DNA of 64,000 bases, from assembly GCA_037974665.1 (NCBI GenBank), contig CM075781.1:34635235-34699234 (forward strand). Reading direction: 5' to 3'. Origin of the DNA: Ehretia macrophylla. Its lineage: Eukaryota > Streptophyta > Magnoliopsida > Boraginales > Ehretiaceae. A program made the translations under genes and the position numbers. Positions 11,150-64,000 of the stretch are shown here, piece after piece. Each line of letters opens with the position of its first letter. Position 1 is the stretch's first letter. The notes under the pieces were generated by a model, which ran no database searches, was not told where the DNA came from, and saw only the letters and a list, made by a program, of their open reading frames with translations.

Positions 11150-11395
11150 TTTTTTTTTCTTTCCATATTCTCCATCTCTTTCTCCTCATTAGTGCTTCTT
11201 GCGAGAGATCTGAAAGAAGTGAAAGATACTTCAAGAAACAAAAAAAGCAGGAAAGACTTGATCAAAATGATCACTTTTGACTTAATGAATTTTCTATACC
11301 TTAGAAGCCACGGCAATTGTTTGTTCTCTCTATATTCTCCATCACTTCTCCTCATTAGTTCTTCTTGCAAGAGATCTGAAAGAAGTTAAAGAACT
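11150..11395 (+). repeat. Duplicated 5' leader segment of the CRK gene
   Basis: The segment 'agaagccacggcag...ctccatc...ctcctcattagt...cttcttgc...agatctgaaagaagt' occurs at about 11135-11225 and again at about 11308-11388, just before the start codon. The same doublet is present in the third upstream copy at about 57000-57205, so the duplication predates the gene duplication. Confidence 0.7.
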
Positions 11396-11418
11396 TCAGA
11401 AAAAGCCATTCTCCAACC

Positions 11419-16422: not shown

Positions 16423-16544
16423 TAAATTTCCTAGAACATAGTTCAAACAAAAAATTAGGGAAATTTTTACATTTAGTCCCTATTGTTTGTAAAGTATCTC
16501 AATTTAGTCCTTATTGTTTCACTACAAGAAAAATAGGATGAGGC

Positions 16545-17135
16545 GATAGCCAAAATCCGTAGTCTAGCGGTAGCCAAATTGGGACGGGCGACGGATAGGT
16601 TATGGATTTCCGTCCGTAGTAAAAACCCCCGTAGCCAATTTCAAAAATTAATTTATATTTATTTTTTATAACTTATATAGCAAAATAGTCGTAGCCCATC
16701 CGTAGGCAACTAAAATTGTGATTTTTTTTATTATTAATTATTAATGTTCGTAGCCAATCTGTAGCCGTTTCGGTCGTAAATTGGTCGTAGCCCACGGCTA
16801 CGGATTAATATCCGTAAAATATCGGTAGCCAATCCATAGCCCATCCGCAGCCAAATAATTTTTTTATTTTTTTAATTAATTATTAATGTCCGTAGCAAAT
16901 CCGTAGCCATTTTAGTCGTAAATCAATCGTAGCCCACGGTTACGGATATATTGGTAGCCATATATTTGGTAGCAAATCCGTATCCCATCCGTAGCCAACT
17001 AAAATTTTGATTTTTTTTAATTAATTATTAACGTCCGTAGCAAAATTGTAGCAATTCCGTAGCAATTTGTCACCACATATCGGTGGCCAATCCGTTGTCC
17101 AAATCCATAGCCATTTGTCCGTAGAAAAACGGTGG
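16545..17135. repeat. Left subterminal repeats of the CACTA element
   Basis: There are roughly 25 scattered copies, in both orientations and with variants, of CCGTAGCCAATC or GTAGCCCATCCG. Subterminal motifs of this kind bind the TNP1-type protein in En/Spm. The same word is the core of the palindromes in the right-hand array. Confidence 0.75.
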
Positions 17136-17339
17136 CTAATTTTATGTGGTTATTCTGTAACCTAATAATTATTAATTATTCTGAAAATAATATGAAATGT
17201 AAAAATTAAAAAATAAAACAAATTTACACAACAAAACATAAAATTAAATATATAAAATAATATTTACATAACGCATCTTTTAAATTCATAAAAATATTAA
17301 AATATTGTTCGAAATTAGTTGTTAAAATTGTCCAAAAAA

Positions 17340-19400
17340 ACCAAATCCTAAATGTACCATTGATCACGTTGATCGGGCCAATGTTGTGGGTGTTTTAGCC
17401 GATTAATCTCCTGCTGCAAATGCCTCACAAGTTCTATGGCTTCGTTCACTTGTCGTTGCGTCTCTTGTTGTTCCTTTCCTTCGTTATCAAGTTGTTGCCT
17501 CAAGGACTCCGTTCTAGCAATGACTCGCCTGTCGACTTATTCTTCCGAGAGTCCAACTCTAGTGTTGATGGTGGGAATAGAGGATATTTCCCTACCAATG
17601 CAGACTCCTTGCAAGCTGAGTCCATAGACACGCCATTTTTTCGCCCCACCAACAGCTTGGTAGAAGATATCATCGGGTTTAACGAGCGGCGTCGTTGGGT
17701 CTTCTTGCGTCTCAAGTTCACGTTGTTGGAGCATCTCCTTATATCGTGACTACAAAAATAACATTTATAATTATTTAATATCCTTATACCACTCAATATC
17801 ATGTCCCAACTCGACCCCACCTAAAACCAAGTCGGGACGCGACGAAATTTCGGCATTACAACATCTGTAATATAGCCCCAAGCATAAAAATATAACATGC
17901 ATAACAATTATATAGCCACAACAACCAACATACAACCAAAAATAAAATTCACAATCATGGGCCTCCAACTTACAACCAAAGGATATGCGTCCGTCACAAC
18001 TACTTCAACATAATCATAATGATACAATCCTCATAATGAAATATATAAGCCTAACCACCTATACATTACAAAAGAGACTTGTGAAATTCAAGTTTTATAA
18101 CCTTTTAAATTAAAATTGACTAGCAACTTAAAATTGACATATACATTATATAAATTTAACAAAATTAAACGACAGTAAAAGTAATACACTGTCTAAATAC
18201 TTACTATCGTCTCAGCAACCTTTGGATCAGAGTACTGGATAACATCACCCTTCCTTTTACTATGAGCGACCTTGAAAACATCAGCTCTATAGACAGAGGC
18301 GTTTATTGTCACCGCCTACATTATTAAATTCATAAGTAGTAATTACTCAAAAATTAGAATATTAAGATAGACTAATTTAAGCTATTAAATTTAAGTAGTT
18401 AATTTTAGTTACATACTATCCTTCTCTGAACCTCATGAAAGGGGGTGGCACCCGTGTAGTGTACCAATTGATTTTTCTCCCTATTTTTCTTGGTCGCTTT
18501 TGATTTCTCTATCCACTTTCGGTTGCACCATCTTACTTGCATTTGCTCCCAATTTTCTAATGTCATCCACTTAGGAGGCTTGTCAAATTTATAAGCCTTA
18601 GCCAATTGGTCTTTCATTCTTTTCGCTGCCTTATAATGGAAGCAATGCTTGATGCGTGTCCTGTCACATGGGTGCTATTTATAATCTTTCTGCAACGAAG
18701 AAAAAAGGTCAATGCCAACATGTGTTAATTGAATATGCACGTATAAATGTACAAGTGTATAATATAATATATATTGACTGCATTATTGTTTATAAAAACC
18801 TCAAACGAGCAAAACCATCGGTCTTTGACATCTTACGAAATTTCTCCGTAAGTAATCCAAGGTTCTGTGAATCCGCTTGCGAATATTGACTTAAAATCTT
18901 GTATCGCCAAAGCAGGTACAAATCTGTTAAGAAGTATATCAATTCTATAAGTTAGTGTCACTTGTATTTGCATATTATAACTTTAAGAACTAATAACAAA
19001 CAATTAAAGTAATTGCTATACAATTTTATTGAATTGTATTTTACCCATTATTATATAATCGAATGTGAGTACGTCTATCCTTCAACCATGTGGCGTACTG
19101 AGCGAGTGACTCGAATCCTATAGGCTACCAGTTTGTTGTGCCAGCAGCACGTGATGATAGTTCTGGCTGTTCCGTTTCATGCTCGACGCTGTTCGTGTTC
19201 GTGGCCGTGGCATTAACACGACAATCCTCAGTAGTCACTCGGATGCCAGACAATGGGGTAGATAGTCCGGTGGAACGAACGGACGTCCCTGGAGTGCTAG
19301 GAGACTCACTATTACCTTCACCACGTGCTGCGGAGGACGAAGTTGATGGCATGCCGGATCGTGACTAATCTGCTTGCGATCTACCACCTCTAACCATGAT
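17340..19400 (-). pseudogene. TNP1-like transposase gene remnant (Ptta/En/Spm family)
   Basis: Read on the - strand. An N-terminal piece near 19400-19125 is Ser/Thr-rich (MVRGGRSQAD, a stop, then MPSTSSSAARGEG). A central piece has VKDRWFC near 18830. 18617-18405 has PKWMTLENWEQM, then NRKWIEKSKATKKNREKN and a YTGATPF phrase. Near 18315-18200 is VYRADVFKVAHSKRKGDVIQ, and at 17755-17360 is DDIFYQAVGGAKKWRVYGL, ending in a Gln/Glu-rich coiled-coil-like tail. This order (W..MC/RW, NR.K...H..G, then DIF..V.G......G.) is that of plant Ptta/En/Spm transposases. In-frame stops and unclear splice sites indicate decay. The protein would bind the subterminal repeats. Confidence 0.75.
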
Positions 19401-19494
19401 TGCTACACAAAAAAACATAAGATACACATATATGTATAATATATTCTATAAATTAAGAGATATTATAACCACTTTTCATTATAGTTTTCGATTA

Positions 19495-19947
19495 TCAATC
19501 GTACACTTCACATACAGTTGACATACAAAATATTGAATTTATAGGTACATTTGATGGGCCAAATGTGTCAAATACCATTCTCCTAAAACTGTTTCCTTCA
19601 TCACATCCAGAATTATCACCAACATTATGGTTGTTATCCTGATAGAGGTCATCATGCTCCCCATGTGAAGTCCAAACATAGTAATGCCTCATGAACCCCC
19701 AAGAATAGAGATGATGTCTACAAGTATGAGGGTCCTTAAAGTCATAATTCTTACATTTCGCACAAGGACATCTAATTTTGTCTCTATCCCTGTACTTTCG
19801 TTGATTACACGCAAAAGGAATGAATTCTTTGTGTACACCATGAACGAACTTAAGATTTAATGCTCCCTTAGATGTTAATCGATCGTTCATCCATTGTTGT
19901 CTAAGTCTTTCCATTTTCTCAACTTCTGTATAATAATATTTGTTCAT
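19495..19947 (-). pseudogene. TNP2 transposase N-terminal fragment (transposase-associated domain)
   Basis: The 150-residue frame has RQQWMNDRLTSKG, then FACNQRKYRDRDKIRCPCAK and CKNYDF, then HLYSWGFMRHYYVWTSHGE. This is the transposase-associated domain at the start of plant CACTA TNP2 proteins: the CPCxKCxN zinc-like motif followed by HLxxxGFxxxYxxWxxHGE. The large catalytic TNP2 domain that should follow is absent; the TNP1-like gene begins only about 100 bases downstream. The deletion makes the element non-autonomous. Start at 19947 is plausible because MNKYYYTEVEKMERLRQQWM leads straight into the domain. Confidence 0.82.
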
Positions 19948-20279
19948 CCCATTAAAGAATATAATAGTAAAAGATACAGTTAATTAAATACAATTTATGA
20001 TTCATTACTTAATCTTTGTTAATTAATTACAATAAATATTACTACAATACAACATTCATGTTAAATATATTACCAAAGATTTATGACAAAACCTCATTTT
20101 AAAAAATTAGAAATAAACATAACAATAAATATAAAAATAATAAAGCTGAACAAATCAAAAAAAAAATTACACATATGAAGATATATATTGTACACATATA
20201 TAAAGATGTCTATACTAGACAACAAAATAGAGAAAAAATGTATAAATTAAAATACATACTAGTAGAAAAGAGAGAGAAA

Positions 20280-20700
20280 TAGATGGTGGTGGTGCCTTTA
20301 GTGGTGATGGTGGTGGACCTTGGTAGTGGTGGGTGGTGGTGATGGTGCCCTAGATATGGTAGTGATGATGGACCTTGGTGGTGTTGGGTGGTAGTGATAG
20401 TGTCCTACATGATGGTGATGGGTGGTGGTGATGGTTTAATAGATAGTGATGAGGGATTACCTTGTGGTGGTGATGATGCCTTTGTTGGTGGTAATGGTGA
20501 TGGTGCCCTAGATATGGTGGTGATGGTGGACCTTGGTGGTAGTGGGTGGTGGTGATGGTGCCTTTGTTGGTAGTGGTGGTAGTACCCTTAGTGGTGGTGT
20601 TGATGGTGATAGCAGTGGTCTTGGTGATGATGGTAGTAGTGGTGATAGTAGGGTGGGGATGGTGGTGGGGGTGATGGGGGGGGAGAGAAAGAGAATTTTT
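20280..20700. repeat. GGT/GAT-rich low-complexity tract in the CACTA element
   Basis: Imperfect repeats of 'ggtggtgatggtgcc' and 'ccttagtggtgg' run for about 400 bases. The second CACTA element has the same tract at 58100-58290. Open frames through it (His/Thr/Pro-rich) reflect the repeat and are not supported as genes. Confidence 0.75.
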
Positions 20701-20804
20701 TTGTAAGAGATAGAGAGAGTAAAGTGATTTTGGGGAAAAAAATGTTTTAAAACTTCAACATTCACCAAAAAAAAAAAAGAAATTAATTTTTTTTTTTAAA
20801 AAAA

Positions 20805-21000
20805 AATTTGTGCAGGTCACGGCCTGCCAGCCGGCGGGCTACCCGACATGGGGACGCGAGACAATGCTGTCTCGTTGTCCCCATCGGACGACGGACGATG
20901 GGCCGGCCAGCTGGCCCCGTCATCCGGCGGGGACAGCGAGATAGCCCTGTCTCGCATCCCCAAGCCGGGTGGCCAACTAGCCAGCGAGCCGATCCAGATT
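20805..21000. repeat. GC-rich foldback upstream of the TNP2 start
   Basis: An abrupt GC-rich block in AT-rich DNA with inverted words: GGGGACGCGAGAC facing GTCTCGCATCCCC, and CGGGCTACCCG-type words facing AGCCGGGTGGCC. It lies about 0.9-1 kb 5' of the TNP2 start on the - strand. En/Spm has a GC-rich control region near its promoter, so a similar role is possible. Confidence 0.6.
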
Positions 21001-21519
21001 TTTTTTTATTTTTTATTTCTAAAAAATCTTACAAAAATCAGGAAACCCAACCCCAAACCCCTTTTTTTTCCCCAACTTCACTTCTCTTCTAAAACTCTCT
21101 CAAAATCTCTTTAAACTCATCAAAAACTAACCATTAAATCTCAAAAAAATTTCCACAATCACATTACCCACTCCATGAAACATCAAAATCTCCAAAAAAT
21201 TTTCTCAAACACCAATATTTTCCTCAACCCTATTGCAAAAAAAACTCAAAAATCTCTCTAAAATTATCAAAATCTAGCCATTAAACCTTAAAATTTATTC
21301 CATAATCACATTACCCGCTTGCCAAAACCTCAAAATCTACAAAGAGTTCTTCCAAACCCCAATCTTTTCAAGCCCTAAGCCAAAAAATAGGTAAAGTTGT
21401 ATTAAACTCAAAATTTAGCCATTAAATCTCAAATTTTTTTCCATAATCACATTACCCACTTTCCAAAACCTCAAAATTGTGGTATATATCTTTTAGACAT
21501 CTTTAGTTTTTTTTGTTTA

Positions 21520-23800
21520 ATGAATGGGCTATGGATGGGCTATGAAAAAAATAATTTCTTAGCCCATCCTTGGCAATTGGCTACGGATGGGCTACGGAAA
21601 AATGAAATCCATAGCCAATTGCCACGAATGGGTTATGGACCACTAATAGTATTAATTCTAACTTATTAATAAATAGGAACAACGTATTAAAGCATGTTTA
21701 TATCTTTATATTTTTCATATTTATGAAGTTTAGACACAATGTGAGAGTTTTTGGACCCCTAGATTGAACGTTTATTAACATTAACTCAATGTTAAGTGAG
21801 GACATGATAATTTCGATTCAAACGGCTAATGACTTCATAGGATATTTCTCTATTAAAATACGCACGCTAATAAAATACGGATAAAATTTATTTTTATTTG
21901 GAAAACTAGCATCTTAAGTAAAGTTTACTACGTTGTAGGTGCAATCAAAATTCCATAATGCAAATTAAAACCGATGAACCAAATTTTTATCTAAAAGTCC
22001 GCAGCCCATTCGTGGCAATTGGCTACGAAAAAATGAAATCCGTAGCCTATTTGTAGCCAATTGCCACGGATGGGCTACGGACCACTAATAGTATGAATTT
22101 TAACTTGTTAATAGGTAGGAACAACGTATTAAAGCGTATTTATATCTTTATATTTTTCATGTTTATGAAGTTTAGACACAATGTGAGAATTTTTAGACCC
22201 CTAGATTGAACGTTTATTAATATTAATGCAATGTTAAGTGAGGACATGATAACTTCGATTCAAACGACTAATGATTTTGTAGGAGATTTCTGTATTAAAA
22301 TACGCACAATAATAAAATACGGACCAAATTTATTTTTATTTATAAAACTAACATCTCAAGTGAAGTTTACTACGTTGTAGGTGCAATCAAAATTCAGTAA
22401 TGCAAATTAAAACCGATAAATCAAATTTTTATCTAAAAGTCCATAGCCCATCCGTGGCAATTGGCTACGAATGGGCTATGGAAAAATGAAATATGTAGCC
22501 CATCTGTAGCCAATTGCCACGGATGGGCTACGGACCACTAATTGTATGAGTTCTAACTTGTTAATAGGTAGGCACAACGTATTAAAGCGTGTTTATATTT
22601 TTATATCTTTCATGTTTATGAAGTTTAGACACAATGTGAGAGTTTTTGGACCCCTAGATTGAACGTTTATTAATATTAACGAATGTTAAGTGAGGACATA
22701 ATAATTTCGATTCAAACGACTAATGACTTCATAGGATATTTCTCTATTAAAATACGCACGCTAATAAAATATGGATAAAATTTATTTTTATCTGGAAAAC
22801 TAGCATCTTAAGTGAAGTTTACTACGTTGTAGGTGTAATCAAAATTCCGTAATGCAAATTAAAACCGATAAACCAAATTTTTATCTAAAAGTCCGTAGCC
22901 CATTCGTGGCAATTGGCTACGGAAAAATGAAATCTGTAGCCTATCTGTAGCCAATTGCCACGGATGGGCTACGGACCACTAATAGTATAAATTCTAACTT
23001 GTTAATAGGTAGGAACAACGTATTAAAGCGTATTTATATCTTTATATTTTTCATATTTATGAAGTTTAGACACAATGTGAGAATTTTTAGACCCCTAGAT
23101 TGAACGTTTATTAACATTAATGCAATGTTAAGTGAGGACATGATAACTTCGATTCAAACGACTAAAATACGCACACTAATAAAATACGGACCAAATTTAT
23201 TTTTATTTATAAAACTAACATCTCAAGTGAAGTTTACTACGTTGTAGGTGCAATCAAAATTCAGTAATGCAAATTAAAACTGATAAATCAAATTTTTATC
23301 TAAAAGTCCATAGCCCATCCGTGACAATTGGCTATGAATGGGCTATGGAAAAATGAAATCTGTAGCCCATCCGTAGCCAATTGCCACGGATGGGCTACGG
23401 ACCACTAATTGTATGAGTTCTAACTTGTTAATAGGTAGGCACAACGTATTAAAGCATGTTTATATTTTTATATTTTTCATGTTTATGAAGTTTAGACACA
23501 ATGTGAGAATTTTTGGACCCCTAGATTGAACATTGATTAACATTAACGAAATGTTAAGTGAAGACATGATAACTTCGATTTAAACGGCTAATGACTTCGT
23601 AGGAAATTTCTCTATTAAAATACGCACGCTAATAAAATAAAGACCAAGTTTATTTTTATTTGGAAAACTAGTATCTCAAGTGAAGTTTACTACGTTGTAG
23701 GTGCAATCAAATTTCGTAATTCAAATTAAAACCGATAAACCTCATTTTTTTCTGAAAGTCCGTAGCCCATCCGTGGTAATTGGCTACGGATGGGCTACAA
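21520..23800. repeat. Tandem array of about five 445-bp units with palindromes (CACTA right side)
   Basis: The marker GAAGTTTAGACACAATGTGA recurs near 21724, 22175, 22619, 23060 and 23486, giving spacings of about 426-451 bp. Each unit also has TTTACTACGTTGTAGGTGCA and an inverted pair: 'gtagcccatccgtggcaatt', a short loop containing 'aaaaatgaaatc', then GTAGCCAATTGCCACGGATG and GGCTACGG. Units are about 90% alike by eye. A homologous but longer array is at 58805-63760. Confidence 0.9.
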
Positions 23801-24661
23801 ACTTTGTTATTTTTATTTTTCCCTCTGGTCCTTTATTTTTTATGAACATTTTTTTGAATAATACATATTCCTTAGTCAATTCGTGGCTATTTGGCCACCG
23901 CATAGCTACGAAATTTGTTATGATTTTTGTTGCCGAATTAATTAAATAGTCTGTAGCAAATTTGTCACGGCTAGGCACGAAATATTATTATTATTATTTT
24001 TTATAATTAAAATTATTTTCCGTAATCAATCCGTAGCCATTTTTTGTCGCTATTTCAATGGGACCTAAGTTGGCTACGGATGGGCTACGGAATTAGTTGC
24101 TCGTAGCAATTCCGTAGCCAATTTACTATGAAAAATAACCGTCGCCCATGTGTTGTTTTCTTGTAGTGTTTAAAATGTTTTAATTTAGTCCCTATTGTTT
24201 CACCAAAAGTTTCAATTTCGTTCCTATTGTTTAAAATGTCTCAATTTAGTCCCTATTGTTTTCAAAAAGTTTCAAATTTATCCCTATTATTTTTAAAAAA
24301 TTTCAATTTCGTTCCTATTATTTTTTTAAAATTTCAAATTCGTTCTTATTATCTAAGGACAAAATCGAAATTTTTTGAGAAACAATAGGGGATGAATTTG
24401 AAACTTTTTGAAAATAATAGGGACGAAATTAAAACTTTTTTGAAAACAATAAAGACGCAATTGAAAACTTTAAACAATAGGAATGAAATTGAAACTTTTA
24501 GGGAAACAATATGAACTAAATTGAGACATATTAAATAATAGGGACTAAACTGAATTTTTTTACAAACAATAAGGACTAAATGTGAGATTTTCCCAAAAAA
24601 TTACATATTCAAAACATAATTTTACATATTCTAGACATGATCATTTGGATGAAAATTGTAG

Positions 24662-47300: not shown

Positions 47301-50300
47301 CTTTTGCAACCTTTGGAAATTCCACAATGGAAATTGGAGCACATAACAATGGATTTCGTGACAGAGTTACCGAGGTCACCTCGAGGTTATGATACTGTTT
47401 GGGTAATCGTGGATCGGTTAACGAAGACGGCCCATTTTATCGCAATGAATAAGACAGATGGCTTAGAGAAACAAGTTGATTTGTACATAGCTAACATTGT
47501 GAAATTGCATGATGTACTTGTGAGCATAGTGTCTGACAGAGATCCTAGGTTTACATCGCGGTTTTGGCAAAAGTTTCAAGAGGCGATGAGGACAAAATTG
47601 AGCTTCAGTACAGCCTACCATCCTCAAATTGACGGGCAGTCCGAAAGGACCATTCAAATCTTGGAGGACATGCTACGAGCTTGTGCATTGGATTTTAGAG
47701 GATCATGGGAAAAACACTTGTCGTTGGCAAAGTTTGCCTACAACAACAGTTATCAAGCGACGATTGACATGGCACCTTACGAGGCTTTGTACGGACGAAA
47801 GTGTAGATCTCCTCTATATTGGAGTGAGGTTGGTGAGATGAAGGCTATTGATCCTACATTATTGCCAAAGATGATGGAAAAGATTGAGAATGTACATTTG
47901 ATCCAGAAAAGGATGTTCACCGCACAAAGTAGGCAGAAAAGTTATGCCTATAGAAGAATAAGAGACTTGGAATTTGAAGAGGGTGATAAGGTGTTTCTGA
48001 AATTGTCTTCTCGGAAGGGGTTGATTCGGCATGGTAAGGGTGACAAATTGAGTCCAAGGTACGTGAGACCGTTCGAGATTGTAAAGAAAATTAGCAAGTT
48101 AGCATACCGGTTGAGTCTACCAACGAGTCTCTCCGGTATACATGACGTGTTCCATGTCTCGATGTTAAGGAAGTACCAACCCGACCCTTCTCATATCTTG
48201 GAGTCGGAACCGCTACAACTTCGCGAGAACCTTTCCTATGAAGAAAGGCCCATGCGAATCTTGGATGAACAAGAGTGAGAGTTACGTAGAAAGAAGATTC
48301 CTATGGTGAAGGTATTGTGGAACAACCATGGAATTGAGGAAGCAACCTGGGAGCTACGGGATCAGATGGAGAAGCAATATCTGGAGTTATTTGCAAGGTA
48401 AAAAAAAATTGCGATGACGCAATTCTATTAAAGAGAAGAAGATGTAAAACCCGGCACGAGAACCTATACGTAACTATATTATTAAGAATATATTCATATG
48501 ATTTCATATTCATTAGCATCAATTAATATGCATTAATATCATTTAACGTGCATATTTATCATTTTACGTGCCATAAATGTTCAATTACGTGCATTAGAGA
48601 ATTTTACATATTGTAGACAATTATAATACCTTAATAAGATGGGAGAGGCAACTAATTAGTTGCAAATGAACCAAAATGGCAAACTAGCAATATATGACTT
48701 AGTTGGAAGGCACTCTCATCATTTGCCCTCTTGATATTTGTTCACCTAACTTACACTATTCTCTCCCACTCAAAACACACACAAACCCACTAATACACAC
48801 ACAAAAACACTACACACACACTCACATGTTTTCAGTACACACATATACACACACAACAAGCTTGAAAAGAGAGAAAGAAGAAGAAGAAAGAGGAAGAAGA
48901 AGGAGGAGAATAAGCTTTGTCCAGCCATTTCTAGCCATTTTCGAGCTTTTGCTTGCATCCTACAACCTCAGATTATCATTTGCTTGCACAAGTGAGGTGA
49001 GGGATTCTTCAAAAATCTTTTTAAATACTCATTCAAGATTACATAATTCTCATTTGGTGTTAATATTGTTATAGCTTCCGTATCTAAGCTTGGATGAGGA
49101 GATTGAATATTTTGTGTGTTGTAGAACTAGGACTTGCTCAATTTTTGAATTGATGAACTTGAGAAATCGATAGGTGGGCTAGGTGTTGCTCAATTTGTAT
49201 ATAAAAGTTAGGAGCATGAAGTTAGCCTTAGAGTTTGGAGGTTGATTTTGATGTTGTGTGTGATGTTGAATTCTTGGTAAGTTTGTAGTTGATTGTTGGT
49301 ATGGAAGGTTTTGGTTGATGTTTGAACCATTATTTGGTGCCTAATAAAGCACATTATGTATGCTTGATGGTTTGTAAGAAGTGGGAGGAATGGTAGCAAG
49401 AAAAGAAAAGTTGGTGCATTTGATGCACTGTAGCGTTCACAAGCAGAATTGGCATGACCGAACACCCCTGGTCCACCGGTCCACCAGTGGGAGGGGGGTC
49501 GTCCGCTGGAGAGGCTTCGGGTTTGACAGATTTGCCCAATGTTTTTCTAAAGGCTATAACTCACTCAATTCAACTTTGAATTGCATTCCGTTTGATTCTA
49601 GAGTTATCTACATTCGATAAGCTTCGATTATAAACCAAAATCAAATTAATTGGAGCTTAGGAAGATAAGTAATATAACTATTTAAGTTGGGACTAATGCG
49701 AAGGTGTCGAGTTTGATACATTTTATGTTCCACTTTGGGTACAACCTATCTTGTTGACCTCTACTTGCATGTTTATGCATTATATGAACCCTATTTGAAA
49801 CATGATTACACTAATATGTCATTGACTACTATTACTAACCGGTGGCAACCTACTTTGTTGCCTTCGAGCTTGTTTGCTATGATTGAACTCTTCTCTCACT
49901 TGGTGTGTTTCCTTGGAGAGATGGTTGGTATAATTAAGTTATTGAACGCCATGGTGGAAGTTCTGGGCCGCCTGGGCGGCATTGGGCTTGCCAGGACGGA
50001 CTCGGCTACTGTGGTTGGGTTGCCTCCGGAGTACCCTTATCGGTTGGTGTTTTGGGTTTATCATGGAAGCTGATTCGTGACTGGCCATCTCCAACAACTA
50101 TTCGAGTATCGTATCCCTTGATATCTGGTAAACCTACCTTCGCTTGGGCCCTTGAAGAACTTGGAAGGTAGGATTATGCATTACTACTTGCTTATTAATT
50201 CTTGTACACTAATTGCAACTCTTGCATGACATGTTTTCAAAAGGATTTTCCAAATGACGAAAATGTTTGCAATAACCTACCGTGACTTGTAACCCTCGCT

Positions 50301-50801
50301 GAGCTAAGTGTAGCTCATCCCTTTCTATGACAATCTTTCAGGTGAGACTGAGCCTGAGCTAGGGACTCAAGCTAAAGGCGAGACCTACTTGTGTGACCAG
50401 TCGAACTTTTGCTTGCTATGATTATGCTTGTTGTTAATGCTATTTTGGTGGTTAAACTATGTTAATATTGAACAACTTCAAGTACTGTAATATTCTTTTG
50501 GATTTGGTCATGTAACTAACTTCTAACTTTGGGTTGTAACTTTATTGCTAGTCTATTCTTTTGAGGCCTAGAAGGCATTGATGTTTGTGGCGTGCTTAAG
50601 GGTTGAATATAGGCCTTGTACATATGAACGAACAGGTTAATGAATGTTGAAGTGCCGATAGATTTGGGCACCCTTCTTGAAGTTACTTATGGATATTATA
50701 AATGATTAGGTCATGAATGGATGATTGTACAGGGTTATCTATCTAGTCCACGTCACGTTCCGGCCTTGTCTTGGCAACGAGTTCGAGGTCGGGGCGTGAC
50801 A
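41314..50801 (+). mobile_element. Gypsy chromovirus, Tekay/Del-like (fossil), nearly full-length
   Basis: LTRs 41314-43568 and 48443-50801 start TGTAAAACCC and end GGGGCGTGACA, with a perfect 5-bp duplication GTATG at 41309-41313 and 50802-50806. The primer site TGGTATCAAAGC is at 43576-43587 and a polypurine tract precedes the 3' LTR. Parts in order: gag from 43921 to about 44820, aspartic protease near 45100-45400, reverse transcriptase about 45500-46500, RNase H about 46550-46950, integrase about 47115-48100, and a chromodomain-like tail up to about 48400. It is broken, with a handful of breaks. Sampled LTR stretches are about 94-96% alike, and the left LTR lacks about 105 bp, which points to an age of a few million years under commonly used plant rates. 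It is inserted in opposite orientation into the related LTR2. Confidence 0.92.
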
Positions 50802-51408: not shown

Positions 51409-52759
51409 TAGAGGTGGCATTTGGGCCAGTCAAATCATGAGTTGAGAAAATTGAACTCGATTCAACACAAATGTTTAATGGGTCAAGCTGGGTTTGGCTC
51501 ATTTCTCAAAATATAGGACTCAGCTCGGTCCACGAGCCCACTACCACGAGTTGCAAGTTAGGCTGAACTGAGTTGTGCCAACCCATTTTTTGTGATTACT
51601 GTATTCTGAATATAATATATATATATATATTATCAACAATTAAAAAATAAAATTTAAAATTAATTTTTTTTAAAGAAAAGTTAATTTAACTATTAACGAG
51701 ACAATATACAAGTTGATTGATAACATTAACTATTAACATAAATAATAAAATATTACATAACAAACTACAAGTTAATGAGACATAGTAGATTAATGATATA
51801 AACATAAAAATAAAATATTACATAAACTCTTAATGAAAGCTAATGCAAAAGTTCTATATTTCGTTATCCTCCTTGTACGTGTGCTAGGCCTGCTGGTAGT
51901 GGTGGTGGGCTTGACGGTGGCGATGGTTGAATAATCACTTCAAAATTAAAATAATCTGTGACATTTGGTTGTTAAGATTCAAGGTGTCTTACAAGAGTTC
52001 CAGTTTCAAATTTATGTCGAAATATAAATTGACGTTGACAATAGTTACAAATTACACATCCCTGTTCTTCAAAGTATGTAAAATGATTTCAAACCTCTAA
52101 CGAATATAATTGTCTTGAAATATTTTTTTCTACGTGGACATAGTTATATATAATGTTGTAGACTAGTAGTAAAATAAAATTGAATATACTAAGTATAACT
52201 AAAGCACTATATTACTAAGTATTTATAGGAAAAGTTAAATGTACGATTATAAAAATCATAAAAAAAAATGTATATAAAATATTTTAAAAAATATAATATG
52301 TTGCAAGTTGTAAACTTGCAATATCATAAAAAAATATTTGATAACAAGTCATTTAATATTAACTTAAGAAATAAATTTACTACTTCTTACTATTAATTTG
52401 TTAAAAAAATAATTACTATGACTTGCTAGTTTTTTTTTTTTTTAAATAGTTACTACAACTTACATTGCATGCATACAACATAATATTTCAATTTCTGTTA
52501 ACAAGTTAGCCCAAATTGTGCTTAATTTGTACTAGGCTTGAGTTGGGCTCGATATGGGCCTTATTTGGGCTCAAGCTGGGTTGGGTTGGGCTTGGGCTCA
52601 AATGAACTGGGTCAAAAATTATATGACCTATATCAACCCATATATATGTTGTGGACTGGACCGAGTCGAGCCCACTATCAACTGAGCAGGGTTGGGCCTG
52701 AATTTTCGTATGTTGGACTGAACTGGGCTTGTGTTGGCCCAACCCAAATGCCACTTCTA
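51409..52759 (-). mobile_element. Non-autonomous hAT element with a BED zinc-finger remnant
   Basis: The ends TAGAGGTGGCATTTGGG and CCCAAATGCCACTTCTA are inverted repeats of the TAGxGGTGGCA class. Flanks CCACCAGC (51401-51408) and CTACCAGC (52760-52767) match at 7 of 8 bases. GC-richer subterminal words ('gggcccaa', 'cgagccca') lie at both ends. The interior keeps a transposase scrap on the - strand. Confidence 0.88.
51940..52105 (-). pseudogene. hAT transposase BED zinc-finger fragment
   Basis: The - strand reads (V-stop-)NHFTYFEEQGCVICNYCQRQ then FIFRHKFETGTLVRHLE. This matches a BED finger: the WxxF segment, C-x2-C, and the RHLE end with its His. The usual Trp before NHF has become a stop codon and another stop follows RHLES. 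The RNase H-like core and the dimerisation domain are absent. BED fingers bind element ends in hAT transposases. Confidence 0.78.
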
Positions 52760-52858
52760 CTACCAGCCATGTGTGTTGGAGCCATTGAAACTTACACTTT
52801 TCTACCTGCAACTTATCATTGTCCCATTTTCCCCAAATTTCCCATATTGCATACTACA

Positions 52859-53179
52859 ATGGATGACCAAAAAGGGTGGTTTATCATCATTCTTCTTCAG
52901 CTTCTCATACACCTTCTTAGCCTCACTATAGGCATATATGCACAAAACAACACATACCAGAAAAACCTGAAAATTCTTCTCTCTCCAATCTCCTCCAATG
53001 TCAACGCATATAGATTCTACAACTCCGCTGCTGGCCAAAACTCTGATACATTCAACATAATCGTGCTGTGTAGAGGAGATGTTGAGCTCAATACATGTCG
53101 TGCCTGTATCAACAACTCAACTAAAAAGGTTTTAGAACTTTTTCCAAATCAAAAGGAAGCAATATTATGGTGCAGATAG
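52859..53179 (+). pseudogene. CRK: CRK exon-1 fragment of a second gene copy
   Basis: The start MDDQKGWFIIILLQLLIHLL is a signal peptide (continuing SLTIGIYAQ). YQKNLKILLSPISSN and YRFYNSAAGQNSDTFNIIV follow, then the first DUF26 motif CRGDVELNTCRAC and NSTKKVLELFPNQKEAI. The reading stops at WCR, where a Copia fragment begins at about 53180, so half of domain 1, all of domain 2, the membrane span and the kinase are missing. The sequence is clearly different from the CRK at 11419 (an older paralogue), but the C-x8-C-x2-C spacing is preserved. Start at 52859 is chosen because the signal peptide follows directly. It could at most make a short secreted peptide. Confidence 0.85.
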
Positions 53180-55150: not shown

Positions 55151-55359
55151 AGAAAAAATTGGTATCATGGAGTTGATCAGTTGTGAATCGTGATACCTTG
55201 CTTCTTAATATTTTTCCTTTTGCTATTATAAGTCAACCCATAACTAGTTGGTGCCTAGCTAGTATCATATTTATTTTCAACAGACTATATAGACCTATGA
55301 CGTGACGAAGCTGGTGGCTATCATCGGGAGGGAGATAAAAGACTTGTGGTAAGAAAAAT
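55151..55359. other. Short spacer between CRK 3' flank and next CRK upstream region
   Basis: About 210 bp with no recognised feature. It shows how close successive CRK units once were before insertions; the corresponding spacer after the first CRK is about 3.9 kb. Confidence 0.4.
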
Positions 55360-55724
55360 CTTCCAACTTTGAACAACTGCTAGCATTCTTAATTCCACCT
55401 CTGGAATGAGAAACGAAAAGCTAATCCATTGACTTGCTTAAAAAGGTTTTCGCCTATTCGGTCTGCGGCTTTTCATAGGGAGGTTTTTCTCACCACAACT
55501 CTTTGAATTTGTCTAATATTTTGTATGCTTCGGTTGCTTTTAGCTTCAATAAGAAATATTAGTTTTTTCATCCATAGCATATCTACATTGTCTAAAAATT
55601 TAACGCATGCATCTTTGTAATTCAATTAAAGTGGTCGTATACCCCATTTTCCCAGTCTATCTACTCCAGTCATCCCCGGTGCATCCCATTTCTTCTATTT
55701 TCATGCCTTTGTTTCTTGACATAG

Positions 55725-56105
55725 CTGATTGCCGGTGTTTACTCAAAAAAAAAGATTACTGAACATCGGATTTATAGTTTTAGTTGTAAATTTGAGGGTC
55801 TACATTTATAATAGCATACTACTTTGTCTATATATCCATTCAATTTGACATAGCTGGTTGTCAGTGTTTACTCAAAAAAAAGAGATTACTGGACATCGAA
55901 TTTATAGTTTTAGTTGTAAATTTGAGGGTCTACATTTATAATAGCATACTACTTTGTCTATATATCCATTCAATTTGGCATAGCTTGTTGTTGGTGTTTA
56001 CTCAAAAAAAGAGATTGCTGAACATCGGATTTATAGTTTTAGTTGTAAATTTAAGGGTCTACATTTATAATAGCATACTAATTTGTCTATATATTCATTC
56101 AATAG
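55725..56105 (+). repeat. 125-bp segment triplicated in the third CRK upstream region
   Basis: Three tandem units, each 'gacatagct...ggtgtttactcaaaaaaa...gattactg...catcg...tttatagttttagttgtaaa...tctatatatccattcaat', begin near 55719, 55846 and 55976. The first CRK copy has a single unit at about 9908-10035. Confidence 0.88.
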
Positions 56106-56383
56106 GACACTATTGGTTCCTTCAAGGCCGAACATTCAGCACTCACATTGTAAGTTGCACATAAATATAGGGCCACCCTCTCTCAGGCTGCCGGACCAAA
56201 TTTTGTCCCAATTCAATACATCTTTGTAATTCTGGCGAAGTTAACCATTAGATAATACTCAACTTTTCCTCCTATATATTATCATTCGCTTCTATAAATA
56301 CTCGATTTTGTTGAACCATGTAGCCATGCACCAATTTTTTGGTGTTTCATCCAACTTTGATCAAGATAAAGTTGAAAAGAAAA

Positions 56384-56795
56384 GGGCAAATCTCACAAAT
56401 AGTCCTTATTGTTTACAAATTTTTGACAAATAGTCCTAATTGTTTTAAAAGTCACGCAATTAGTTCCCATTATTTGTAAAACTTTCACCAATAGTCCCTA
56501 TTGTTTCACAAGTTATTCAGTTAGTCCTTATTGTTTGTAAAAGTCTTTCCATTAGTCCTCATTGTTTGCGAAAGTCTCTTCATTAGTCTTCATTGTTTGC
56601 AAATGCATTTACAAACATTGAAGACTAATAGAGAGACTTTTGCAAATATTAAGGACTAATTGAGTGACTTTTGAAACAATTAGGACTATTGGTGAGACTT
56701 TTACAAACGATAGGACTAATCGTGTGATTTCTAAAATAAAATAGACTATTAATCCAAAACTTGTAAACAATATAGACTATTTGTCCAATTTGCCC
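56384..56795. repeat. Mutator-type MITE in the third CRK upstream region
   Basis: Starts GGGCAAATCTCACAAATAGT and ends ACTATTTGTCCAATTTGCCC, with a perfect 9-bp duplication AAAAGAAAA at 56375-56383 and 56796-56804. The first CRK copy at about 10415 has no insert here. Same 'agtccctattgttt' family as the split MITE at 16458-24594. Confidence 0.93.
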
Positions 56796-57976
56796 AAAAG
56801 AAAAAGACATAGTAAGTAGTAGTAATTCAAGACAGTATAAAATAGTCACATGAAATCTACACTCTGGTCACCAACACAGTTTGGTCTTTGTAGTTTTCCA
56901 TAGCCTCTTCAATCTTCATAATTTATATATGAACTCATGAAAGCAGGAAAAATTAATTAACTTGGAAACCACTTTTTGACTAATGAATTTTCTATACCTG
57001 AGAAGCCACAGCAGTTGTTTGTTCTTTCCATATTCTCCATCCATTTTTCCTTGTTAGTGCTTCTTGCTAGAGATCTGAAAGCAGGAAAGACTTTGATCAA
57101 AATGGTCACTTTTACACCTCATAAGCCACGACAATTGTTTGTTCTCTCTATATTATCCATATCTTCTCGTCATTAGTTCTTCTTGCAAGAGATTTGAAAG
57201 AAGTTAAAGGCCTCCAAAAAAATCCATCCTCAAAGGCCTCCAAAAAATGAATATACAACTTGCAAAACATCATAATCCGATCGTTTAATTCAATATAACT
57301 CATAATACATTCACAACCAATAATTCAATCGTTTCACATATCTAGTGATAACAAAGTAGGCTACCACTTATAGCATTCATACACATTTTACCCATTTTTC
57401 GTTACCAATTAACTTGCACGAGAGCACCATTAAGTTCACATGGTAATCATTTTTAGTAATCTAACTAACTAACAACATAAACAAGTCACATTTCCATTTG
57501 AAATCCAAGGAAATTTACAAGATTCCAACTTTAGGCCTTATTTTGCAAGCATGTATCATGTATATATGTTGTATGCAATGTATGTAGGCCAAAAATACTC
57601 ATTCAAGCATTTTATCAAACATATATTCAACATACTATACAACTATATCAAACAACAACACTCACATAAAGTCTCTAACTTTCAACAATATTCTACACAT
57701 GTACTTCACATTTACTTCATAATAAACAACTTAGCATGTGAATTCATAGCCTAATTTAACACTAAAGGCCCAAAATATTTAAGTAGTATATTACACTACC
57801 AAATAACATTTCATATTGCACAACCAAATATGACTGCAATACAACATTTTTAATTCACACAATATTTATACCAAATATTTATGTCAAATATTACTAAATA
57901 AAATTTGAAATAAATATAAAATTAAGTACAAAAACTATAGATTGGGCAAATAAAAATCTAAAATTCTCACACATAT

Positions 57977-58017
<41 letters not shown>

Positions 58018-58089
58018 TATATGTACATATGTGTATAGTAGATAAAAAAGAGGGAAAATATAAACCCTAAACTATTTACCTATAGAAAA

Positions 58090-58310
58090 GAAAGAAAGAG
58101 ATGGTGGTAATGGTGATGGTACCCTTAGTGGTAGTGGTGGTACCCTTAGTGGTGGTGGTGGTGTTAATGGTGCCCTTGGTGGTGGTTGGTGGTAGTGGTG
58201 GTACCTTTAGAAGTAGTGGTTGTGTCCTTGTTAGTGATGGTACCTTTGGTAGTAGTGATGGTGGCCATGGTAGTGGTGGTGGTTGTTGGTGGTAGTGCCT
58301 TAGAGAGAGA
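58090..58310. repeat. GGT-rich low-complexity tract in the second CACTA element
   Basis: 'ggtggtggtgg...acccttagtggtggtgg' repeats, the counterpart of 20280-20700. The Thr/Lys/Gly or Val/Met-rich open frames here follow from the repeat. Confidence 0.8.
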
Positions 58311-58346
58311 GAAAAAAGAAAGAAAATTTCGTAAATAGGGAAAAAA

Positions 58347-58805
58347 AGTAGAGTGAAACGAAAAAACTTGAATAAATTTTCGTAGTTGTAGTTGAAAAAA
58401 TAAACGTGGGCGACTGCCAGGCTACGGTCATTCTGTAGCCAAACAACGGGGGGCAACGGAATGGCTGTAGCCATTCCATCACCCCCGACGGAAGAGAGTA
58501 CCGGCCTGTTGCCGCCCCCATCCGGCGCGGGCAGAGGCCAAGTTGACGCGGGCAGCCATTCTATCACCCCCGTTGGATGGGGGAACCGGCCAGCCGGCGC
58601 CCCTATCCAATACAAGCCAAGGCAGCAACTTGGCCTCGGCTTGCATCGGATGAAGGCGCTGGCTGACCGGTAACCCTTTTCAGCGGGGCTATTTTGTTGC
58701 CCTCGTGGTTTGGCTACGAAATGGCCGTAGCCTGGCAGTCTCCCCGCATTTATTTTTTCAACTACAACTACGAAAATTTATTCAAGTTATTTCATTTCCC
58801 TCTAC
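58347..58805. repeat. Large inverted repeat with GC-rich core
   Basis: The left arm 'acttgaataaattttcgtag' and 'ttgtagttgaaaaaataaa' is mirrored by 'ttattttttcaactacaact' and 'acgaaaatttattcaagtta' on the right. Inside, GACTGCCAGGCTACGG faces CCGTAGCCTGGCAGTC. The roughly 270-bp centre is strongly GC-rich ('ccggccagccggcgcc'). It occupies the same place as the GC-rich foldback at 20805-21000. Confidence 0.85.
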
Positions 58806-61800
58806 TTTTATGAAGTTTAGACACAATGTAAGAGTTTTTCGACTCCTAGATTGAACGTTTATTAACATTAATGAAATGTTAAGTGAAAACATGATAATTT
58901 CGATTTAAACGACAATTTATTTCTCTATAAAAGTACACACGTTAATAAACTACAGACGAAGTTTATTTTTTTTTTTAAAATTTGCAACTCAAGTGAAATT
59001 TATTACGTTGTAGATGCAATCAAAATTCCATAACTCAAATTAAAAATGATAAACGTCAATTTTTTGTTGAAGTCCGTAGCCCAGCAGTAGCTTAGGCTAC
59101 GGAAGAGTTGAATTCCGTAGCATAGCATAGCCAATTGGCTACTGCTGGGCTACTGAATACATATATTATATATTCTAACTTGCTAATAGGCAGGAACAAC
59201 GTATTAAAACGTGTTAATATCTTTATATTTTTCTTATTTATGAAGTTCAGACATAATGTGAGATTTTTGGATCACTAGATTGAATGTTAATTAACGTTAA
59301 CATAATGTTAAGTGAGGACATGGTAAGTTCGATTTAAATGACTATTGATTTTCAGTGAGATTTCTATATAAAAGTACGCACGTTAATGAAATACGGACCA
59401 AATTTATTTTTTTTTGGAAAAATTTTCAACTCAAGTGAAGTTTACTACGTTGTACATGTAATCAAAATTTCATAATTCAAATTAAAAATGATAAAACTCA
59501 TTTTTTTTGTGGAAGTACGTAGCCCAGCAGTAGCCAATTGACTACTGCTAGGCTACAAAAGAGTTGAATTTCGTAGCTTAGCAGTAGCCTGGGCTACGGA
59601 AGACTTGAAGTCTGAAGCTTAGCAGTAGCCAATAAGCTACTGCTGGGCTACTGAATACTTATATTATATATTCTAACGTGTTAATAGATAGAAACAACGT
59701 ATTAAAACGTGTTAATATCTTCAAATTTTTCTTATTTATGAAGTTTAGACATAATGTGAAAATTTTTGGACCACTAGATTGAACGTTAATTAACATTAAC
59801 GCAATGTTAAGTGAGGACATGACAAGTTTGATTAAAATGACTATTGATTTTCTATGAGATTTCTCTATAAAAATACGCACGTTAATGAAATACAGAGCAA
59901 GATTATTTTATTTTTTTTGAAAAATTTGCAAATCAAGTGAAGTTTACTACGTTGTAGGTGCAATCAAAATTCTATAATTCAAATTAAAAATGATAAAACT
60001 CAATCTTTTGTTAAAATCCGTAGCCCAACAGTAGCCAATTGGCTACTGCAGGGCTATGGAAGAGTTGAAGTCCGTAGCCTAGCAATAGTCAATTGGCTAC
60101 TGCTGGGCTACGGAATACTTATATTTTATATTCTAATTTGTTAATAGATAGGAACAACGTATTAAAACGTGTTAATATTTTCATATTTTTCTTATTTATG
60201 AAGTTTAAACATAATGTGAGAGTTTTTGGATCACTAGATTGAACGATAATTAACGTTAATGCAATTTTTAGTGAGGACATGACAAGTTTGATTTAAACGA
60301 CTATTGATTTTATATGATATTTTTCTATAAAAGTACGCACGTTAATGAAATACAGACCAAGTTTATTTGTTTTTGAAAAATTTACAACTCAAGTGAAGTT
60401 TACTACGTTGTAGATGCAATTAAAATTTCATAATTCAAATTAAAAATGATAAAACTCAATTTTTTGTTGAAGTCCGTAGCCCATCAGTAGCCAATTGGCT
60501 ACCGTTTGGCTAAGGAAGAGTTGAATTTCGTAGTCTAGCAGTAGCCAATTGACTACTACTGGGCTACGAAAAAGTTGAAGTCTATAGCCTAGCAATAGCC
60601 AATTAGCTACTGCTGGGCTACGGAATACTTATATTATATATTCTAACTTATTAATAGATAGGAACAACGTATTAACACTTATTAATATCTTTATATTTTT
60701 CTTATTTATGAAGTTTAGACATAATGTGAGAGTTTTTGGACAACTAGATTGAACGTTAACGCAATGTTAGGTGAGGACATGATAAGTTCGATTTAAATGA
60801 CAATTAATTTTCTATGAGATTTCTCTATAAAAGTTCGCACGTTAATGAAATACGGACCAATTTTATTTTTTTTTTGAAAAATTTACAGCTCAAGTGAAGT
60901 TTACTACGTTGTAGATGTAATCAAAATTTCATAATTAAAATTAAAAACCATAAAGCTCAATTTTTTGTTGAAATCCGTAGCCCAGCAGTAGTTAATTGGC
61001 TATTGCTGGGCTACGGAAGAATTGAAGTATGTAGCCCAGTAGTAGCTAATTGGCTACTACTGCGCTACAAAATACTTATATTATATATTCTAAGTTGTTA
61101 ATAGGGAGGAACAACGTATTAAAACGTGTTAATATCTTCATATTTTTCTTATTTATGAAGTTTAGACATAATGTGATAGTTTTTGGACCACTAGATTGAA
61201 CGTTAATGCAATGTTAAGTTAGGACATGACAAGTTTGATTTAAACGACTATTGATTTTCTAAGAGATTTTTCTATAAAAGTACGTACGTTAATGAAATAC
61301 ATATCAAGTTTTTTTTTTTTTTGAAAAATTTGCAACTCAGGTGAAATTTATTACGTTGTAGGTACAATCAAAATTCCATAATTCAAATTAAAAACGATAA
61401 AGCTCAATTTTTTGTTGAAGTCCATAGTCCAGCGGTAACCAATTGGCTACTGTTGGGCTACAGAAAAGTTGAAGTCCGTAGCCTAGCAGTAGGCAATTGG
61501 CTACTGCTGGGCTACGAAATTCTTATATTATATATTCTAACTTGTTAATAGGTAGAAATAATATATTAAAACGTGTTAATATCTTTATATTTTTCTTATT
61601 TATGAAGTTTAACATAAAGTGATAGTTTTTAGACCACTAGATTGAATGTTAATTAACGTTAACGCAATATTAAGTGAGGACATGACAAGTTTCATTTAAA
61701 CGACTATTGATTTTCAATGAGATTTATACATAAAAGTTAGGTTAATGAAATACGGACCAAGTTTATTTGTTTTTGAAAAATTTGTAACTCAAGTAAAGTT

Positions 61801-63760
61801 TACTACGTTGTAGATATAATTAAAATTCCATAATTCAAATTAAAAATGATAAACCTCAATTTTTTGTTGAAGTCCGTAGTCCAACAGTAGCCAATTGGCT
61901 ATTGCAGGGCTATGGAAGAGTTGAAGTCCGTAGCCTAGCAATAGCCAATTGGCTACTACTGGGATACAGAATGCTTATATTATATATTCTAACTTGTTAA
62001 TAGATAGGAACAACGTATTAAAAAGTGTTAATATCTTCATATTTTTCTTATTTATGAAGTTTAAACATAATGTGAGATTTTTTGGACCACTAGATTGAAC
62101 ATTAATTAACGTTAACGCAATGTTAAGTGAGGACATGACAAGTTTGATTTAAACGACTATTGATTTTCTATGAGATTTCTTTATAAAAGTACGCACATTA
62201 ATGAAATACGGACCAAGTTTATTTGTTTTTTAAAAATTTACAACTCAAGTAAAGTTTTCTACGTTGTAGGTGCAATCAAAATTTCATAATTCAAATTAAA
62301 AACGATAAAGCTCATTTTTTTGTTAAAGTTTCGTAGCCCAGCAGTAGCCAATTGGCTATTGTTGGGCTAAGGATGAGTTGAAGTCCGTAGCCTAGCAGTA
62401 ACCAATTGGCTACTGCTAGGTTACAGAATACTTATATTATATATTCTAACTTATTAATAGGTAGGAACAATGTATTAAAACGTGTCAATATCTTCATATT
62501 TTTCTTATTTATGAAGTTTAGACATAATGTGAGAGTTTTTGGACAAATAAATTGAACGTTAACGCAATGTTAAGTGAGGGCATGATAAGTTCGATTTAAA
62601 TGACAATTGATTTTCTATGAGATTTCTCTATAAAAGTACACACGTTAATGAAATACGGGCCAAGTTTTTTTTTTTTTTAAACTCTACAACTCAATTGAAA
62701 TTTACTACGTTGTAGGTGTAATTAAAATTTCATAATTCAAATTAAAAACCATAAATCTCAATTTTTTGTTGAAATTCGTAGCCCAACAGTAGCTAATTGG
62801 CTACAGCTGGGCTATGGAAGAATTGAAGTCCATGGCCTAGCAGTAGCCAATTGGCTACTGTTGGGTTACGGAATACTTATATTATATATTCTAACTTGTT
62901 AATAGGAAGGAACAACGTATTAAAACGTGTTAATATGTTCATATTTTTCTTATTTATGAAGTTTAGACATAATGTGAGAGTTTTTGGACCACTAGATTGA
63001 ACGTTAATTAACGTTAACGTAATGTAAGTTAGGACATGACAAGTTTGATTTAAACGACTATTGATTTTCTATGAGATTTTTCTATAAAAATACGCACGTT
63101 AATTAAATACAGACCAAGTTTATTTTTTTTTGAAAAATTTGCAACTTAAGTGAAATTTACTACGTTGTAGGTGCAATCAAAATTCCATAATTCAAATTAA
63201 AAATTATAAAACTCAATTTTTTGTTTAAGTCCGTAGCCTAGCAGTAGTCAATTGGCTACTGTTGGGGTACGGAAGAGTTAAAGTCCGTAGCCTAACCGTA
63301 GCTAATTGGCTTTTGCTGGGCTACAAAATACTTATATTATATATTATAACTTGTTAATAGGTAGGAACAACATATTAAAACGTGTTAATATCTTTATATT
63401 TTTCTTATTTATGAAGTTTAGACACAATGTGATTTTTTTGGACCACTAGATTAAACGTTAATTAACGTTAACGCTATGTTAAGTGAGGACATGACAAGTT
63501 CGATTTAAACGACTATTGATTTCTCTATAAAAGTACGCACGTTAATAAAATATGGATCAAGTTTATTTTTATTTGAAAAATTTGTAACTCATTTGAAGTT
63601 TATTACGTTGTAGGTGCAATTAAAATTTCATAATTCAAATTAAAAACGATAAACCTCAGTTTTTTGTTGAAGTCCGTAGCGTTGGCTACTACTGGGCTAC
63701 GAACGTGTAGAATTCCGTAGCCCATCCGTAGCTAAGGACTACGGATGGGCTACAGACTTT
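58805..63760. repeat. Tandem array of about eleven 450-bp units with paired palindromes
   Basis: The marker 'gaagtttagacataatgtga' or a close variant recurs near 58811, 59241, 59739, 60199, 60709, 61157, 61604, 62056, 62512, 62957 and 63413; spacings are 430-510, mostly 445-460. Most units carry one to three palindromes with the core CAGTAGCCAATTGGCTACTG, extended as CCCAG...CTGGG and then GGCTACGG, usually two separated by 'aagagttgaagtccgtag'. The last unit changes to the CCCATCCGTAG-type word of the other element near 63720. Confidence 0.93.
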
Positions 63761-64000
63761 GTTATTTTATTTTTTCCTATTTAATTAAAATATCCATATT
63801 TAATTTATTAAAACATTTTTTGAATAATATATATAGTCCGTAGCCAAGCCGTGGCTATTGGCCATTGCGTGGCTACGGACTTTTTTATAATTTTTTTGTC
63901 GAATTAATTAAATAATCAGTAACTAGTCCGTAGTAAATTTGCCACGAATAGGCTACGAAATATTATTTTTTATTTTTTTATTAATTAAAATTATTATCCG

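Follow-up and report, generated by a model that had tools for sequence, protein, structure and literature searches.

Tandem units of paired palindromes in the subterminal region of a CACTA transposon family of Ehretia macrophylla

A 64,000-nucleotide stretch of the Ehretia macrophylla genome (assembly GCA_037974665.1, contig CM075781.1, positions 34,635,235 to 34,699,234; hereafter the window, whose coordinates are used unless another locus is named) carries a tandem array of palindrome-bearing units inside a transposable element of the CACTA type. The locus raises the question of whether such an array is an accident of a single copy, a satellite that happens to reside in a transposon, or a part of the transposon itself. 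We find the array in other copies of the family, on one side of the element, and built from a short word that is also concentrated at the opposite, array-free end. The array is a regular part of the family, in all likelihood a subterminal region on the putative promoter side that has grown by tandem duplication and serves as a binding array for a TNPA-type protein.

Structure of the palindrome array

Tandem Repeats Finder (TRF), run on the window, gives a period of 447 bp between 60,520 and 63,680 (7.0 copies, 85% matches). A profile made from the array units places eleven consecutive units, the final one partial, at 58,808-63,758, in agreement with a preliminary description that had put an eleven-unit array of about 450-bp units at 58805..63760. 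Units are about 430-510 bp long and consist of an AT-rich spacer of about 350 bp and a cluster of up to three palindromes, each about 44 bp in full length; the palindromes of the first and last units are degenerate. Mean identity among eight excised units is 88%.

The 20-base core of the palindrome, CAGTAGCCAATTGGCTACTG, has 19 matches in the window at up to three mismatches, every one of them within the array, and 0.00 are expected by chance (100 dinucleotide shuffles of the window). Exact copies account for two of the 19, at 60,029 and 62,841. From the first unit to the last the number of cores is 1, 2, 2, 3, 2, 2, 2, 2, 2, 1 and 0. The core had been described as usually occurring twice per unit, which holds for most units but not for the last, where none is found at this threshold. 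In seven of the eleven units, adjacent cores lie exactly 54 bp from each other. Among 197 palindrome instances in the loci then fetched from the genome, 137 carry two to six changes from the consensus and one is perfect.

The paired palindromes of one unit are approximately reverse complements of each other, so that a pair of about 100 bp folds as a single hairpin. Two double palindromes tested with DNA parameters gave folding z-scores of -11.1 and -12.3, and two single palindromes gave -2.9 and -7.4. The spacer also has blocks conserved as well as the palindromes (for example at 59943-59965), among them TTTACTACGTTGTAGGTGCAATC, which contains a short quasi-palindrome, CTACGTTGTAG; this block is a possible site for a second protein.

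The host element and a complete sister copy

The array lies in element 2, a copy whose array-side CACTA terminus was found at L005:1333. This position corresponds to window coordinate 64,333, which is 333 bp beyond the window, and the terminus reads ...TTTTCTTGTAGTG, then TTTG. The satellite-like array is therefore located within a CACTA element, as had been proposed. The homology of four relatives fetched from the genome (L006, L020, L022 and L023) breaks at 57,243 or 57,244, and thus the gene side of element 2 is truncated there; with a single terminus, no target-site duplication (TSD) can be shown for this copy. A 466-bp inverted repeat (58344-58809) directly separates the gene side from the array; it has a GC-rich centre and outer arms of 67 nt that are 93% complementary. 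Three relatives (L006, L020 and L022) cease matching at 58,427-58,446, inside this inverted repeat, which may be specific to the element 2 copy.

The same window holds a complete sister, element 1. Self-comparison of the window aligns its region 21,523-24,022 with the region of the eleven-unit array, and the aligned pieces are 74-82% identical. CACTA-type terminal inverted repeats are present at 16,520/24,168 in element 1 and at 2,194/8,864 in the relative L020, with 3-bp TSDs of TTT and GTT, respectively. The gene of element 1 is on the minus strand, where PF13963 is followed by pieces of PF03004 (E 1.8e-4, 9.9e-4 and 0.047). Since these read away from the array, the array is on the gene-start side, and the promoter of the gene would lie on the array side as well.

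Within the window, only the PF13963 part of a TNP2-type transposase was detected. The PF13963 exon gave 150 scored matches from 1,821 first-look genome candidates. Three relatives selected for long open reading frames (ORFs) and then scanned all carry the TNP2 domain PF02992 after PF13963 (L036, E 9e-38; L033, 1.1e-16; L030, 1.5e-9); another ORF of L030 had no family match in the domain scan. By its termini, TSDs, the TNP2 of these relatives and the subterminal boxes described below, the family belongs to CACTA / EnSpm. AT-rich repeat DNA with TAGTCCCTATTGTTT words surrounds element 1 (16460-16519 and 24169-24600), and a similar palindrome, of the kind of a miniature inverted-repeat transposable element, is located at 56,384-56,795.

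Table 1. Positions in the window of the two CACTA elements and their parts
Feature	Position	Strand	Basis
CACTA element 2, portion within the window	57244..64000	-	homology limits of relatives; array-side terminus
Tandem array of element 2, 11 units	58808..63758	+	TRF, unit profile, core counts per unit
Example double palindrome, cores 54 bp apart, one long hairpin	60015..60115	.	z -11.1
Terminal palindromes without 450-bp spacers	63711..63960	.	unit profile, arm-class scoring
Complete CACTA element 1, same family, 7,649 bp	16520..24168	-	termini CACTACAAGAAAA / TTTTCTTGTAGTG, TSD TTT
Array of element 1, 5 spacer units, class A palindromes, CATCC linkers	21555..23800	+	self-comparison, unit counts
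Transposase-associated domain PF13963, E 1.3e-18, first recognisable part of the gene	19495..19983	-	domain scan
PF03004 Transposase_24, TNPA-type, three collinear pieces	17537..18674	-	profile 4-51, 57-85, 86-131
Opposite subterminal region of element 1, inward GTAGCC boxes	16520..17169	+	11 forward, 1 reverse

One word, two arrangements

The palindromes are composed of GTAGCC boxes at a pitch of 11 bp. Spacings between boxes on the same strand are most often 11 bp (297 pairs), followed by 54 (132), 43 (79) and 65 bp (54), in counts that include related and duplicate loci. Boxes are concentrated at both ends of element 1, and the 49.6 kb of window sequence that belongs to neither element contains seven.

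Opposite the array, all five ends have polar boxes that point inward (48 forward to 4 reverse, exact boxes); these ends are 73-87% alike and hence do not count as fully independent. Array-side boxes run in both directions in 11 of 11 ends (54 to 48). The unit profile found no array unit in the opposite subterminal region of element 1. The two ends use one word in different syntax, which is direct and polar on one side and palindromic and multiplied on the other. Such a difference is expected if one protein reads two differently built ends.

Occurrence across the family

We searched the genome, which comprises 1.58 Gb in 20 contigs. The exact core occurs at 607 places (control 0), and the conserved spacer word, at up to two mismatches, at 2,553 (reversed control 0). 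Loci selected by the core have units at each of 11 separate places, where the duplicates L009-L014 are counted once and the touching loci L024 and L006-L008 once; this selection favoured palindromes. Two samples drawn without regard to palindromes give a fairer test. The first was selected by terminal sequence only. With a 182-bp query from the terminus, 40 array-side ends were scored from 658 candidates, and 20 of them were retrieved together with 1 kb of sequence on their inner side: the 19 off C1 (the window's own excluded) and one of the 20 on C1. A spacer-bearing unit is present within 1 kb in 15 of these 20.

Coding copies, the second such sample, give a similar picture. Sixteen were examined, all 11 scored on C1 and five among the listed C2 matches. 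The exact spacer word is found at most 10 kb away in 11 of them, compared with 0.75% of random positions, and in 10 of the 16 the array is on the gene-start side in the same orientation as in the window. The possibility that the array is a local accident, which the preliminary description had raised in case other copies lacked it, is contradicted by the sister element, by the counts in the genome and by the ends selected on terminal sequence.

Six loci at C1:26.67-28.31 Mb (L009-L014) were considered as independent short non-autonomous elements and rejected as such. Their shared blocks are mostly 93-98% identical and extend outside the element, so that they represent one shared CACTA insertion multiplied by segmental duplication. 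Their supposed second terminus, which has two mismatches and no TSD, was likewise rejected. Eleven array-side ends at C1 60.34-61.39 Mb look like another segmental-duplication cluster.

Two classes of palindrome arm

The inner linker divides the palindrome arms into two classes, A (CATCC) and B (CAGCA), which are two transversions apart per arm. We tallied the arms of 118 palindromes, with C-to-T and G-to-A changes folded in and the duplicates L010-L014 omitted. Arm pairing was AA in 52, BB in 59, AB in two and intermediate in five, whereas independent drawing of the arms would give about 56 mixed palindromes among the 118, as calculated from the margins. The two AB palindromes sit in inverted remnants next to the longest array of the family. 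Exact strand hits in the genome number 389 for AA, 179 for BB (about 90 places) and one for AB.

The palindromes scored in the eleven-unit array are of class B, and the first of the terminal palindromes (63,711-63,757) is of class A. Next to the terminus the palindrome is often AA, and this extends to B arrays such as that of the window (63,717), but not to L016-L018 or L049-L051. The classes also occur side by side within one array, as in L016, where BB is at 5,480 and AA at 5,534.

In a stricter set of 96 instances the linkers are identical on both arms in 21, and the mean linker difference is 1.43, compared with 2.08 when permuted. Compensated arm changes number 96 against a permuted mean of 72.8 (s.d. 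6.6), with the highest of 500 permutations equal to the observed value and slid controls giving 15-29; the set contains class-A palindromes, possibly explaining part of the excess. The preliminary description had asked whether palindromes are kept above chance symmetry. Their arms match in class far beyond independent mixing, but changes within an instance are mostly uncompensated, and ongoing arm-to-arm correction inside one class was rejected as a reading.

It is conceivable, though we doubt it, that the palindrome is a heritable cassette whose class switches from CATCC to CAGCA on both arms in one step, with a hairpin or cruciform intermediate templating the switch and unequal exchange then shuffling the two cassettes. 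Against this, common descent after one origin accounts for the co-segregation of the arms. If the cassette interpretation were true, the binding-site alphabet would evolve by hairpin-templated conversion, with dyad symmetry maintained without selection on each arm.

Variation in array length

The number of spacer units per locus ranges from 1 to 37. The longest array, at C1:91.799-91.819 Mb (L006:2048-L008:2086), contains 37 spacer units in about 20 kb with a 2.8-kb interruption. It keeps a gene-side flank matching window 57,244-58,446 and reaches the terminal palindromes, after which an inverted second copy starts. The inverted array stands tail to tail with the longest array, with no CACTA end between, and four inverted units lie outside the longest array and are not part of its 37. 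Because the element flank and terminal palindromes are retained, the longest array is an overgrown element and not a free satellite, and it was rejected as a stand-alone example. Stand-alone arrays of the unit, for which the preliminary description had proposed a search, did not emerge: no array outside an element was seen among the loci fetched (from genome lists of the first 100 matches).

Unit identity is 0.875 within arrays and 0.853 between them. Similarity in the longest stretch peaks between units eight positions apart (lag 8, mean 0.892, maximum 0.985).

Proposed role of the array and alternatives

Most likely, the array is a subterminal TNPA-type binding array of the En/Spm kind that has become overgrown. 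Its base word is the GTAGCC box, repeated at 11 bp, or about one helical turn. Two box pairs set head to head around AATT form the 44-bp palindrome, and usually two palindromes 54 bp apart, together with a spacer of about 350 bp, form one unit. In the proposed scheme the TNPA-type protein of the element (PF03004) would bind the boxes, and dimers would fit the palindromes; head-to-head boxes at an 11-bp pitch appear suited to dimers on one face of the helix. Many units could raise occupancy and favour cooperative loading, which would help to pair the ends for cutting by TNP2. The loaded array might also repress or titrate the element's own promoter, putatively located on the array side, and array length would shift, probably through unequal exchange between units. 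TNPA is reported to bind the Spm subterminal repeats, and this type of protein acts in excision and can block transcription (PMC2613891). Multiplied, putative binding sites for the element's own protein, one of the roles suggested at the outset, are retained here as the best available function.

Several observations weigh against this account. Four of the 20 terminus-selected ends (L038, L042, L046 and L047) retain the terminal part only within 1 kb, and a fifth unit-less end, L054, carries about 680 bp of inserted sequence, so that long arrays may be dispensable. Five of the 16 coding copies are without the exact spacer word within 10 kb; cores are listed near one of these (C1:73,013,450) and class-A palindromes near two (C1:7,059,801 and C1:119,924,919), and the remaining two have neither nearby among the matches listed. 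The coding copy at C1:101,936,051 has nearby arrays solely in the opposite orientation. Single arm changes number 806 in comparison with the 96 compensated ones. In 91 units, A/T columns are conserved at 0.881 in the palindromes and 0.938 in the spacer (p = 0.003), a difference in the wrong direction, and G/C columns at 0.837 and 0.790, respectively. A stronger constraint on the palindromes than on the spacer is not seen. It therefore appears that copies, once inserted, are free to decay, and the spacer could be as important as the palindromes. Finally, each PF03004 piece of element 1 scores below the curated Pfam cut-off.

One alternative is that the array is a passenger satellite, in which a slippage-prone palindromic stretch grew by unequal crossing-over and is carried along by the transposon, and the extra units are functionless. 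This rival is a real one because the unit number is loose and four of the 20 ends are without a unit, and we regard it as unlikely but deserving of serious weight. The range of 1 to 37 spacer units among loci, within-array identity barely above between-array identity, the lag-8 block repeat of the longest array, and palindrome conservation that does not exceed that of the spacer are all as a passenger would have them. There are also precedents, in a satellite DNA (satDNA) array inside some Chenopodium quinoa CACTA copies (PMC8978399) and in palindromic motifs beside a Beta minisatellite that were proposed to promote array growth (PMC2820488). However, the array is one-sided and in constant register to the terminus in the loci where the terminus is seen, it is present in two subfamilies with about 80% identity between them, and it has its box word in common with the array-free opposite end, a sharing that a passenger would not need.

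A second alternative, which we consider quite improbable, is that the array is retained as a self-control device of the host or the element: its transcripts would form hairpins of about 45 bp that act as a source of small RNAs, and methylation of the family would be maintained in this way. The strong folding of the double palindromes (z -11.1 and -12.3 with DNA parameters) agrees with it, as does a wheat study in which about half of the small RNAs matching CACTA elements map to the outermost tenth at either end, and whose authors suggest loops of double-stranded RNA at the termini (PMC2996936). Hairpins, however, need neither the box polarity of the opposite end nor the 11-bp pitch. Capture of a host satellite by the element, as described for a Chenopodium satDNA array (PMC8978399), is very improbable given that no array outside an element was seen among the loci fetched, that the box word of the unit is common to both subterminal ends, and that the longest array keeps the element flank.

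Other features of the window

ORFs of Ty3/gypsy type (reverse transcriptase, RNase H and integrase) are present at about 44,055-48,278. They are flanked by direct repeats (41,314-43,568 and 48,443-50,801) that are 94% identical and possibly represent long terminal repeats. Apparent pieces of cysteine-rich receptor-like kinases, with Stress-antifung and kinase domains, are found at 11456-12145, 15096-15425 and 52526-53179, and parts of 9,392-11,416 and 55,355-57,234 are likewise related, which suggests a duplicated gene region that truncated element 2 abuts.

Comparison with known CACTA systems

We did not find a CACTA family with subterminal tandem units of about 450 bp made of paired palindromes among the best matches in the open-access literature, outside which most subscription journals lie, and the core word GTAGCCAATTGG matched only unrelated subjects there. 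The long-unit, satellite-like form of palindromic subterminal repeats looks new. In maize En/Spm the boxes are within a few hundred base pairs of the ends, and to our knowledge that element has no units of about 450 bp. The subterminal tandem repeats of Ipomoea nil Tpn1 are shorter than the array units found here.

The family resembles the soybean Tgm elements (Tgm1, Tgmt*, TgmR*) in its CACTA ends and 3-bp TSD, and in asymmetric subterminal regions whose direct and inverted motifs form palindromes or stem-loops (PMC2613891, PMC4219821). As in Tgm, motif copies in the array are paired into palindromes. Tgmt* has 12 stem-loops on one border and two on the other (PMC2613891), and with these 14 already reported, the palindromic pairing of CACTA subterminal motifs, which the preliminary description had singled out, is not in itself novel. 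Unlike the array, the Tgmt* stem-loops are confined to the outer 159 and 732 bp, and the reported motif, TTGGCAG / AATCTTACAG, differs from GTAGCC (PMC2613891), a comparison made by eye, as the Tgm motif was not searched for. Also unlike Tgm, tandem units of about 450 bp extend here over about 1-20 kb, and the opposite end is polar.

Maize En/Spm is similar in having a transposase of TNP2 type together with TNPA, a second DNA-binding protein, by which repeats in the subterminal regions are recognised, whereas the motif reported for En-1 is 12 bp (PMC2613891). Tpn1 is likewise a CACTA family, and its non-autonomous copies retain subterminal repetitive regions, which have been termed cis-requirements for transposition; no palindromic units appear in the description of these regions, in contrast to the array (PMC5105172). 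The Chenopodium CACTA element Jozin also resembles the family, in that some copies contain a satellite array near the 3' end (PMC8978399), and CACTA elements have been reported as a source of satDNA in that genus (PMC7320549). One of the Chenopodium satDNAs derives from a tnp2 coding piece of about 40 bp and the other is called captured. In the accounts of their origin neither is described as made of subterminal palindromes, unlike the units reported here (PMC8978399, PMC7320549).

Conclusion

The family touches on two open questions, how CACTA elements recruit divergent binding proteins and how transposons seed satellite DNA. Its copies form a natural series in which one candidate binding site is present in 1 to 37 similar modules, the polar, array-free end is a built-in control and two symmetric palindrome classes are available. 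Module number, symmetry and class could each be separated for their effects on excision, silencing and array growth.

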